DNA of 64,000 nucleotides from Halorussus limi (GTDB taxonomy: Archaea > Halobacteriota > Halobacteria > Halobacteriales > Haladaptataceae), in contig NZ_CP096663.1 of the NCBI RefSeq assembly GCF_023238205.1, forward strand, positions 1 through 64,000. The letters run 5' to 3'. The notes below the pieces were generated by a model. That model saw only the letters and a program-made list of their open reading frames with translations. It did not search any database and was not told the origin of the DNA. Positions 37,734 through 45,308 of the stretch are shown piece by piece. A program made the position numbers and the translations under genes. Position 1 is the stretch's first letter. Each line of letters begins with the position of its first letter.

Positions 37734-38338
37734 CCTCCCCGCGCTAAAGCGCGAGGATTCCTTCGTGGGGCGTCGGGCCGTCTAACGCTACCCCGAAGAC
37801 AACTTCCTCACCCCGCGTGGTGAGTACCGGGTTCGTGCGCTACACGTCGGCCCTCAAGCGAGGGTATGGGGTATTCGGCGTCCGATATGGACGCGGTATC
37901 CGCTTGTGCCACACCCAATACCGCCTAAACCGAGGCGTCCGAATACCGGGCAACCACCCACGGTTGGAACGTGGGCGGACACGGGTCGTGCCATCGACCA
38001 TACTCCACCATGGCGGGCGGAGTGCAACCGCGAACGGGGCGTGTTTTGGTATGCTGTCGCCCCCTCGTGTGCGCGGTCGTTGCCGACCGTCTCCAGTGAC
38101 GGGTAGGGGTACTGTGAGGACGGCGAACGAATCCGAACCACGTACTCCCCACCGGGTTTGCCGGTGGTGGGCATGGAACCGTCCGTACCAGTGGGAAGCG
38201 ACCCCGAGTCTTCCGATTGAGAGTTTACGCGAGTTGTCTTACCGCACGATACGACGCCGGACTACTTGATAATGTCGGTTGTAGAGGGTTTGTCGGCTTC
38301 ATCCCCGCCCTAAAGGACGAGGCTTTCGCCTCGAATTT
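37727..38338 (-). mobile_element. IS200/IS605-type non-autonomous element (PATE/MITE)
   Basis: About 610 bp with the end structures of haloarchaeal IS200/IS605 or TnpB elements and no transposase. On the minus strand the left end at about 38338 has a hairpin (ATTCGAGGCGAAAGCCTCG) and CTTTAGGGCGGGGATG. The right end has the GCGCTTTAGCGCGGGGAGG hairpin running into ATGTCAA at 37727. No target duplication is visible, as expected for this family. The interior has hairpin-forming stretches (CACCACCGGCAAACCCGGTG) but only spurious frames. The right-end hairpin resembles the 3' part of omega-type guide RNAs, an inference. Confidence 0.7.
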
Positions 38339-39273
38339 CCCGTAAAGTCGAGATCAACCTTCGATTCGATAGCTCGACGTTCGTGCAGATCGACCTCGTA
38401 GTATCCCTCTGTCCGCGTGATACAGTCGAGGAAGAACGTTTGTTTGAGTACGCGTTCGACTTCTCTCTCGAATCCACGGGTCGTCTCAAGCGAGTGCTCG
38501 AACCCCGTCTCAGTAACGATACACGGGCTATCACCTTCAACCACTTTGGCTCCGAGGTAGTACGCGAGTGGAGCAGCGACATAGATAGCCTGATGCGTCG
38601 CTGGAATCTCAATTCGAATTCCGGTGTCGGGAACTTCCAGGCCCGCAGGGATATCGAGAGACTCACCGAGTTCGATAGTCGGCGGATGGCCGCGAAGTGA
38701 CGGGTACGACCGTTCGCAACTCGTTGTCTTTAGGGCAGACCCGAACGTGGAGATGGCCGCCATCATGTCTTCCGGGTCGGACGTCGTGGTGACGGTCGCC
38801 GCGGGCTTCTCGTGATGAGATCGGGCACCCAACAGTATCTCCGTCTCCTCGGCGAACTCGAGTCGAGTACGTTCCGTATCTGATGCAACTGTGAACGGAT
38901 CGTTTACTCGGAGATAGAGTTTGATCGGTGCACCGAGTTCGATACTGTAGACTCCAGCCCCGAACTCCTCGTAGGCGAAGTGCTCTGCCTCGGCAAGCAT
39001 CTCACCCGTCTGATCACGTACGTAGACCGGGACGACCGTTGGCAGAGTGAGCGTTCCCGTGGTAATGGAGATGCCCTTGTCCGCAGGAAAGAGAAAGTTG
39101 TCTGCACCGACTGGTGTCGGAGTGACTGGGCAAGAGGTTTGAACCGAGTACCGCTGTCGTTCGATCGAGTCGATGATAGTGATACCGGTACCGTCCGAAT
39201 CGGCATCAAAGGAGAGTGTACCAACCGAATCCTCGCTGGTTGACTCGACTCGTTCGCTACCCAGACTGTTCAT
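38299..39273 (-). pseudogene. CHAT-type protein truncated by the IS element (copy 1)
   Basis: A 324-codon frame starting MNSLGSERVESTSEDSVGTL. Residues about 25-310 match the N-terminal half of the 43236 gene, e.g. GSALKTTSCERSYPSLRGHP, LAYYLGAKVVEGDSPCIVTE and TRTEGYYEVDLHERR. Similarity ends at KVDLDF, exactly where the IS200/IS605-type left end begins; the last 13 codons are IS sequence. The whole C-terminal CHAT protease part is lost. It follows the DUF7504-like gene at 39377 by 103 nt, in the same order as the intact pair. Confidence 0.78.
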
Positions 39274-39376
39274 TACAGTAGGCGTCTCTCAGAGTAGTAG
39301 CAAAAAACTATCGGGTTCTTAAACAAAAGCCTCCAAACATAAACGAACGACAAGTGCGGGGATTGCAGTTGTCTTC

Positions 39377-43233: not shown

Positions 43234-43235
43234 GT

Positions 43236-45308
43236 ATGGCGCCGACGGTGACGGCGTTGGACGACAGGCCGGGCGTTCGAGTTGTCGATCCGATTGAGAG
43301 CGCACAGTTTGATCTGTGGACGGCGTCGCCAGTGAAGCCGGTGTCAGTCTCGCCGGACGTGTTCCGGTTTCCGGTTGGGAATGCAGTCGAGATATCGACG
43401 AGTCGGGTGGTGGTGCCGGAGTTGACGAGTATCTACCTACATGGCGAGGATGGGTTGGCGGAGACGTTTGACCCGTCGGATGGACGGCTTCGGGTTGAGG
43501 GAGCGCGGACACTCGAAATCAATAGTGCGCCGACGAAGCTCTATCTGCGGGTTGGGTGTCCGCTGGTAGTTACGCGAGAGGATTCACGGGTGGTGGTTCG
43601 GTTTGACGGGGTGGTTGCTGTACAGGTTGGGGTGCGGTCGTTGCATGACCAGCCAGCGGGAACGATTACGACGCCAGAGCGTCCGGAGGCTATGATGCGG
43701 GCGGTGTCGTTGTTGGGGTCGGCGTTGAAGACGACATCGCCGGAGCGGTCGTTTCCGACGTTGCGTGGGCACCCGCCATTGATCGAGACGGGGGACGTGT
43801 TTGCAGTGCCGGACGGCATCGAGCGGCCAGAAACGGGGGTTCGGGTGGAGATGCCTCCCGAGTATGAGTACGTGTATCCGGCGGTATCGCTGGCGTACTA
43901 TCTCGGCGCGGAGGTCGTGCCGGGCACCCACCCACAACTGGTGACAGAGAATGGGTTCACGTATGATTTAGCGGGAGATATCGGGTATGAGCGGCGGGTT
44001 GGGCGTGTCCTCCGACAGGTGTTCGTATTGGATTGTGTGGTGCGGACGGAAGGCTACTACCAGATTGCGCTGCATGAACGCCACCGACTGGAGGAGCGAC
44101 TGGACGTGGATGTTGGCTGGCTCTACGAACTGCCGCTGGCAGCGCGGCTTGAACAGTATCTCGACGTGCCGTATGACGCGGTCGCGGATGTGATTCCGGC
44201 GTGGCCGTTAACCGTCGATGTCGATCCGTCTATATCGAGTCTCGACGCGATGCCGTTTCTCGCTAACGAGTTAGCCGTTGTCCGGACGACTCCTGACCAG
44301 TCGGGATCAGCGACGCCGACACCGGACGTGATTACGGACTTCCAACGCACCGACTCCAACGCTGGTTCGGGGTCAGGGTCAGAGGGTGTGTCGAGTAGGT
44401 TTGTGACGCCGGAGCCGGTGTCGTTCGACTCGGTTGGTCGGGCATGGGTCGGAGATGGGGTACCGGTTGGCGTGAACAAACTCACGTCTGGGTCACTCCA
44501 CCGCAGTCTCGACGTTGACCCAGACCCGTCACCAATCCAGATTCACGTCGTCTGCAACGATTCCGCGATGCAGGCCGAACGCGCTGTCTCAGAGTACTAC
44601 CAATTGAACGAACGACACCAGTTCGATATCACCGTCCACACCGATGTTGAAACGGGGGAGTTACGGGCATTGCTCGAACAGGATGCGGACTTCCTCCACT
44701 ACATCGGCCACGTCACCGACAACGGTATTGTTTGTCCAGACGACCACCTTGACACAGAGGTGCTTTCGAGTGTCTCGGTGAAAGCGTTCCTCTTGAACGC
44801 GTGCGACTCCTACGAGCAAGGCCTCCAGCTCGTCGAGGCCGGAAGCCTCGGCGGAATCATCACGCTCTCCGACGTTGCCGACACCGTCGCCACACGCGCC
44901 GGCACCCAACTCGCCCGCCTCCTCGCCGCAGGCCACACCCTCCACACCAGCACTACCGTCCTCCAAACCCACCTCCTCTCCGGCACCAACTGGCTCACCA
45001 TCGGCAACGCCACACTCTCACTCTGCAACTCACAAAGCGGGGTTCCACTTTATCTCCGTATCTTGGAAGTTGAAGATGGCATATTCAAATCGGAGGTTTC
45101 TACGTTCGTATCACCGAGCCATGGACTTGGTTCTGCTATAAAATTACGTATCGACTCAAAGACTCGCTATTTAGTAAGCGGCAAACTTGACACGTTCGAC
45201 CTCTCTAAGTCAGAACTCGACAAAATACTGGAAGGGGACATCATACCTGTTGATTACGACGAAGAGCGGTACTGGAGCGACGAAATTTCAGCGTCTGATT
45301 TGATTTAG
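43236..45308 (+). CDS. CHAT-domain caspase-like protease (copy 2)
   Basis: A 690-residue protein starting MAPTVTALDDRPGVRVVDPI. The N-terminal module (about 10-310) has GSALKTTSPERSFPTLRGHP, VSLAYYLGAEVVPGTHPQLV and VVRTEGYYQIALHERHRLEE. A Ser/Thr-rich linker (about 345-395) leads to the CHAT domain (about 430-610): DFLHYIGHVTDNGIV with the catalytic His and VKAFLLNACDSYEQGLQLV with the catalytic Cys, then ADTVATRAGTQLARLLAAGH. A roughly 85-residue beta tail follows. CHAT proteases are clan CD cysteine peptidases that act in signalling, cell death or defence. The substrate is unknown. Codon use changes near 44.7 kb. Confidence 0.82.
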   Translation: MAPTVTALDDRPGVRVVDPIESAQFDLWTASPVKPVSVSPDVFRFPVGNAVEISTSRVVVPELTSIYLHGEDGLAETFDPSDGRLRVEGARTLEINSAPTKLYLRVGCPLVVTREDSRVVVRFDGVVAVQVGVRSLHDQPAGTITTPERPEAMMRAVSLLGSALKTTSPERSFPTLRGHPPLIETGDVFAVPDGIERPETGVRVEMPPEYEYVYPAVSLAYYLGAEVVPGTHPQLVTENGFTYDLAGDIGYERRVGRVLRQVFVLDCVVRTEGYYQIALHERHRLEERLDVDVGWLYELPLAARLEQYLDVPYDAVADVIPAWPLTVDVDPSISSLDAMPFLANELAVVRTTPDQSGSATPTPDVITDFQRTDSNAGSGSGSEGVSSRFVTPEPVSFDSVGRAWVGDGVPVGVNKLTSGSLHRSLDVDPDPSPIQIHVVCNDSAMQAERAVSEYYQLNERHQFDITVHTDVETGELRALLEQDADFLHYIGHVTDNGIVCPDDHLDTEVLSSVSVKAFLLNACDSYEQGLQLVEAGSLGGIITLSDVADTVATRAGTQLARLLAAGHTLHTSTTVLQTHLLSGTNWLTIGNATLSLCNSQSGVPLYLRILEVEDGIFKSEVSTFVSPSHGLGSAIKLRIDSKTRYLVSGKLDTFDLSKSELDKILEGDIIPVDYDEERYWSDEISASDLI

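Follow-up and report, generated by a model that had tools for sequence, protein, structure and literature searches.

Contig C5 (150 kb) belongs to the 4.6 Mb genome of the haloarchaeon Halorussus limi. Its first 64 kb, hereafter the window, contain one intact (copy B) and one decayed (copy A) module in which a gene of the DUF7504 family accompanies a gene for a CHAT-type protein. A first-pass annotation had described these two gene pairs, and both are present, with the genes where it had placed them. What it overlooked is a third gene, a micropeptide gene of about 45 codons (family DUF7503) that faces most CHAT genes tail-to-tail from the other strand. Judged from the sequences, peptide signalling by the DUF7503/CHAT pair is likely, and we see an even chance that the system is a peptide-precursor/CHAT-protease module in which DUF7504 serves as an optional regulator.

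A micropeptide gene convergent with CHAT genes

In a sample of 44 genomes, every DUF7503 match (50/50) is convergent with a CHAT gene and lies 6-230 bp beyond the point where the CHAT match ends. The seven genomes of this sample that lack CHAT all lack DUF7503 as well, and one genome has CHAT alone. When a larger set of loci was considered, a DUF7503 hidden Markov model (HMM) match was found at this place for 103 of 137 CHAT genes, and three of 107 DUF7503 matches lay elsewhere, one of them being a tandem second copy. The initial loci had mostly been taken from best matches, which does not apply to the 44-genome sample, and start codons of small open reading frames (ORFs) were assigned by rule. 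If a genome measures 3.4 Mb and has about two CHAT genes, we estimate that chance would place the micropeptide beside CHAT roughly once in several thousand cases. The partnership of DUF7503 and CHAT, a near-obligate convergent linkage, is strongly supported. Often the micropeptide gene overlaps the CHAT stop codon by 3-4 nt (4 nt in the window). Haloferax volcanii carries both DUF7503 and DUF7504 (control matches). At one locus, L060 (G012:C1:486534-486796), two tandem DUF7503 genes with equal scores stand behind a single CHAT gene; the peptide gene has probably been duplicated recently.

The micropeptides share the consensus xxYLxxHPRMxGVLFTxLLLLSQAGxAxA, with a tail behind it. Counted from the HP motif, 73 of 108 peptides extend for 32 residues, and 93 of the 108 terminate with Gly-Pro. 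An (A/V)xA site according to the -3/-1 rule of signal peptidase fits 92 of 97 peptides, and the tail behind this site comprises nine residues in 68 of the 97. The tails themselves are hypervariable, with 94 distinct tails in 97 peptides, and most (79/97) are devoid of charged residues. In its anatomy, DUF7503 looks like a signal peptide joined to a short exported peptide.

In the window, the micropeptide gene (45305-45442, minus strand) encodes the 45-residue product MQSKLATLGRNHPKVMSTIFTAFLLIAQFLLTTDISPLADTHPGP, which ends with HPKVMSTIFTAFLLIAQFLLTTDISPLADTHPGP. With an E value of 2.4e-4 for PF24335, this product is, by its sequence, a divergent relative of DUF7503 and not a formal member; we place it beside that family because it agrees with it in position, length, HPK motif and GP end. 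The copy-A micropeptide of the relative Halorussus aquaticus scores 64.4 for the same model. Comparison of the window and H. aquaticus micropeptides revealed 13 codon changes, with 9 of 17 base changes in third positions; taken alone, this codon pattern is weak evidence.

A second line of evidence comes from one genus (g43). In six of its species the convergent gene keeps a MSExDSGTV-like start and has lost the hydrophobic segment; these genes carry arrays of 4, 5, 7, 7, 10 or 13 copies of GN[GS][GS]GISGP. Nearly all units are spaced by four residues ending with Ala-Asp, and Tandem Repeats Finder (TRF) reported 13 copies of 39 bp in the longest array. Two other g43 species retain the leader form, with the tails GNSGAISGP and SNGAATSGP, and one leader-form species branches among the array species with weak support (0.56). 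The tail predicted for the leader forms by the signal-peptidase rule corresponds to the array unit. Between species the units vary at positions 3-4. Within one array gene, the units encode the same peptide with many synonymous differences, including AGC and TCC serine codons. Since the units are identical at the protein level despite free codon change, selection maintains many copies of one nonapeptide. Single-copy GP-ending forms without a hydrophobic leader occur in two more lineages (L063/L138 and L156).

We propose that processing of the DUF7503 micropeptide yields a peptide ligand of roughly nine residues. In most species, the leader would export DUF7503, and signal peptidase would cleave it at (A/V)xA. 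In the array genus, the precursor would take the form of tandem nonapeptides that are released by another protease, and the Ala-Asp that precedes Gly-Asn would be a fitting site for a caspase-like enzyme, for instance CHAT. The CHAT protein, presumably active as a protease, would be the dedicated partner that cuts or senses the peptide: it may mature the peptide, or it may be switched on or off by it, with control running in one direction or the other, and once switched it would cut some further target. DUF7504, sometimes fused to the halobacterial output domain HalOD1, might tune or relay the signal as a KaiC-like pseudo-ATPase.

The CHAT family and DUF7504

The intact CHAT gene of copy B (43236-45308, plus strand) encodes a protein of about 690 amino acids with an N-domain and a C-terminal CHAT domain. 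ATG 43236 is the likelier start, in agreement with the annotated start of the H. aquaticus homologue; the residue numbers used here count from the GTG at 43218, an alternative start that is also possible. The motifs that the first-pass annotation had read in the complete copy, HYIGH (494-498) and LNACDS (Cys529), are present, and His498 and Cys529 are invariant among 57 homologues, in H..GH and [NS][AG]C.S contexts. The N-domain (residues 1-400) is likewise rich in invariant residues, including PTLRGHPP and DC..RTEG.

No Pfam model matched the window CHAT protein, and the N-domain of about 400 residues is also without a Pfam match. PF12770 is matched by 8 of 52 family members, the best at 2e-5; most members score under the Pfam cut-off, and relatives in genomes G018 and G023 score over it. 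When the family profile was compared with that of canonical archaeal CHAT domains, the alignment had a probability of 97.7% and an E value of 2e-12. The H..GH and C.S motifs of the two coincide in it, and it does not reach into the N-terminal 400 residues. At the level of sequence profiles, the CHAT assignment of the family is confirmed. A PDB profile search with the family gave no hit at E<1. The family thus characterised shares with the CHAT peptidases of PF12770 (clan CD; HetF, Csx29/Craspase) the C-terminal position of the domain and the catalytic motifs, which are aligned and invariant. Unlike these, the haloarchaeal family has no TPR repeats and no CRISPR partner that we could find, and it has its own N-domain; Pfam scans of the window proteins and of family members revealed neither TPR repeats nor Cas matches.

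CHAT-family homologues were found in 365 of 391 haloarchaeal genomes (93%) and in 78 of the 86 genera of the class. A single other family of the phylum, f19, has distant relatives, which adjoin neither DUF7503 nor DUF7504. At locus L151 (G023:C1:417046-423290), three CHAT-family genes stand in direct tandem without DUF7503, and the neighbouring gene convergent with CHAT in this subgroup encodes a TRAM-domain protein. A further CHAT subfamily (L157-L169) occupies a recurrent chromosomal site beside tbsP and a gene whose sequence reads like glyA; at L157, L158, L168 and L169 a divergent GP-ending ORF convergent with the CHAT gene is visible.

Both DUF7504 proteins of the window belong to PF24336 (cut-off 27 bits). 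The copy-B gene (42559-43233, plus strand; 5.4e-22, 79.6 bits) has its stop abutting the CHAT start, and the copy-A gene (39377-40111, minus strand; 4.1e-55, 187.5 bits) is intact. Earlier these proteins had been read as a RecA-like fold without Walker motifs. A Walker A motif is indeed absent from the DUF7504 family alignment; the putative fold rests on weak matches of the family profile to the part of KaiC that surrounds Walker B (E 0.003). The weak KaiC match and the missing Walker A motif are together consistent with a degenerate KaiC-like domain.

Conserved adjacency of DUF7504 and CHAT in other genomes, a check set beforehand, was seen: DUF7504 lies within 1.5 kb of 59 of 94 CHAT genes, upstream of 46 and downstream of 13, and some of the upstream proteins are fused to HalOD1. 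However, DUF7504 is not the defining partner of CHAT that the first-pass annotation took it for. It occurs in 116 of 116 haloarchaeal genomes, with a maximum of 20 copies per genome; the seven sampled genomes that lack CHAT are among them. At L192 (5019-5663), DUF7504 sits between DUF7854 and DUF7855/DUF7856, directly behind an MCM helicase gene, and the order DUF7504-DUF7856 recurs at L196. Because it is present in all 116 genomes and also at loci without CHAT, DUF7504 is a general haloarchaeal family and not CHAT-specific. Of the proposed undescribed haloarchaeal protease-activation system, what holds is a CHAT-protease system with invariant His and Cys for which we found no prior work: a literature search on DUF7503, DUF7504 and CHAT domains in haloarchaea returned nothing among open-licence papers. 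DUF7504 as its defining partner does not hold. As a separate observation, a CHAT-DUF7504 module on a plasmid of Halorussus caseinilyticus (L075, 9941-12324) lies about 2 kb from genes for a DNA adenine methylase and a SacI-family restriction enzyme.

Decay of copy A and its surroundings

The two modules had been described as a duplication, and there are two loci, of which copy B alone is intact and copy A is decayed. In copy A, the CHAT gene (38299-39273, minus strand) retains its N-terminal half only. As claimed, this half is conserved, its product being about 44% identical to the copy-B CHAT protein. It is not a shorter variant that does without a CHAT half; it is a broken gene, the homology of which ends at 38342 beside a stretch (37738-38341, no strand assigned) with the hairpin ends CGCGCTAAAGCGCGAGG and CGCCCTAAAGGACGAGG. 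Read from its sequence, this stretch, which is present as a single copy in this genome, looks like an IS200/605-type remnant. Copy A lacks both the CHAT half and the micropeptide gene.

On the H. aquaticus plasmid NZ_CP100402, the copy-A CHAT gene has both halves (L073, 894-2977 and 4087-4152) and is interrupted close to its start by an IS5 element. Since the full CHAT gene exists there, copy A was formerly a full module. The copy-A DUF7504 protein is identical in amino-acid sequence between the two organisms, and the sequence comparison indicates that copy A is broken in different ways in these two relatives.

A winged-helix regulator gene (40138-40551, plus strand; HTH_27, 4.6e-5) diverges by 26 nt from the copy-A pair, as had been stated correctly. 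It is common to the window and H. aquaticus, with 100% identity at L073. As candidate parts of the module, neither this regulator nor the small membrane protein nor the exported protein of the window recurs across the sampled loci. The exported protein (41461-42258), previously labelled Ig-like, has no family match of any kind in the Pfam scan. It was considered as part of the module and rejected: the H. aquaticus plasmid has a gene of the PD-(D/E)XK nuclease family in its place (L073, 6537-7913), which puts the exported protein outside the module. The interval between the two modules (window 41461-42258 versus L073 6537-7913) looks like a variable cargo site. An Rfam scan of the region gave no match.

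Alternative explanations and known systems

Several observations weigh against the proposed signalling role. Export is not universal because the array forms have no leader, and the leader of the other forms could be a plain membrane anchor. Roughly every seventh tail is without GP. The micropeptide is missing from some CHAT clades, such as the copies near tbsP and the tandem copies beside the TRAM-domain gene, which are mostly without a recognisable DUF7503. The window micropeptide is itself divergent, reaching 21 bits against the PF24335 cut-off of 27, its AxA site is not clear, and of the 13 codons that differ in H. aquaticus, 8 are changed nonsynonymously. After correction for overall divergence, the tail and the CHAT N-domain show no specific co-divergence (partial r -0.03). 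AlphaFold2 (AF2) models built with three aligned sequences gave predicted local distance difference test (pLDDT) values of 34 for CHAT and 41 for DUF7504.

The main rival explanation does without a diffusible signal. DUF7503 would be a single-pass membrane peptide, the tail of which docks in CHAT as a substrate or pseudosubstrate and keeps it inactive at the membrane, with the arrays raising valency. The rigid length and the strongly conserved hydrophobic segment go beyond the need of a generic signal peptide, and the tight linkage of DUF7503 to CHAT fits as well. Moreover, the CHAT protease Csx29 has Csx30 as its dedicated substrate protein (PMC10028731), a precedent that supports the tail as a tethered substrate or inhibitor. 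Yet forms without a hydrophobic leader exist, the -3/-1 rule is obeyed by nearly all of the peptides scored (92/97), and tails that differ almost from peptide to peptide (94 in 97) would be odd for a docking motif. We regard tethering as possible, on the doubtful side.

It is unlikely, in our view, that the genes form a cell-death or defence module, in which DUF7504 would activate CHAT on stress or infection and CHAT would cut DUF7503, freeing a membrane-active toxin as with protease-activated gasdermin. CHAT and caspase-like proteases serve defence elsewhere, the micropeptide is hydrophobic, several copies are plasmid-borne and one relative lies near a restriction-modification locus. However, the CHAT family is found in 93% of haloarchaeal genomes, the DUF7504 and CHAT proteins of the window have no PADLOC match, no relatives were seen on viral contigs, and partners without a hydrophobic segment cannot be membrane toxins. 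For gasdermin, there was no Pfam or PADLOC match among the eight window proteins scanned. None of these results points specifically to phage defence. Very unlikely, finally, is the two-gene sensor-protease as first proposed, with DUF7503 as a separate gene that shares the 3' end by accident. The direct upstream position of DUF7504 in 46 of 94 cases, the stop/start contact in the window and the HalOD1-DUF7504 fusions upstream of CHAT would agree with it, but DUF7503 was seen in the genome sample exclusively beside CHAT (50/50), whereas DUF7504 also occurs in genomes and at loci that have no CHAT.

Peptide signalling, the reading we prefer, can be compared with known precursor systems. The yeast alpha-factor is made from a multi-copy precursor of tandem identical short peptides with short spacers. 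The g43 arrays resemble it in this tandem arrangement and differ in having no leader and an Ala-Asp before nearly every unit. The Bacillus Phr/Rap systems employ an exported precursor of about 40 residues, with a signal peptide and a short C-terminal peptide, encoded beside the partner gene. Precursor size, predicted layout and adjoining partner are alike; the partner of DUF7503, however, is CHAT and not Rap, and the genes are convergent, not co-directional.

A closer look at heterocystous cyanobacteria offers further parallels. PatX is a Sec-exported precursor whose C-terminal HRGTGR hexapeptide is matured by a peptidase, whereas processing of the PatS precursor is believed to be cytoplasmic (PMC12756182). 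A single kind of signal can therefore have exported as well as cytosolic precursors. Like PatX/PatP and PatS, the DUF7503 system combines a short precursor, a predicted Sec-type leader, a putative short C-terminal peptide, leaderless relatives and a putative peptidase. In contrast to them, DUF7503 has no RGSGR/RGTGR motif, the linked protease is CHAT and not PatP, and the hosts are single-celled.

In Haloferax volcanii, strong caspase-like activity has been described, and the same 2012 paper notes that archaeal genomes have no clear caspase homologues (PMC3615174). CHAT is caspase-related and near-universal in haloarchaea, and by sequence the family is a candidate for the gene source of this activity. 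Tentatively, and with more doubt than confidence, we put forward the wider idea that species-specific secreted or processed nonapeptide signals, together with a cognate CHAT processor or receptor-effector, constitute the first peptide-pheromone-like archaeal system and account for haloarchaeal caspase-like activity. The near-universal CHAT family provides a concrete candidate where archaeal caspase homologues had seemed absent. Its near-obligate partner, which resembles a peptide-signal precursor and has been multiplied into identical nonapeptides, would be a candidate archaeal peptide signal.

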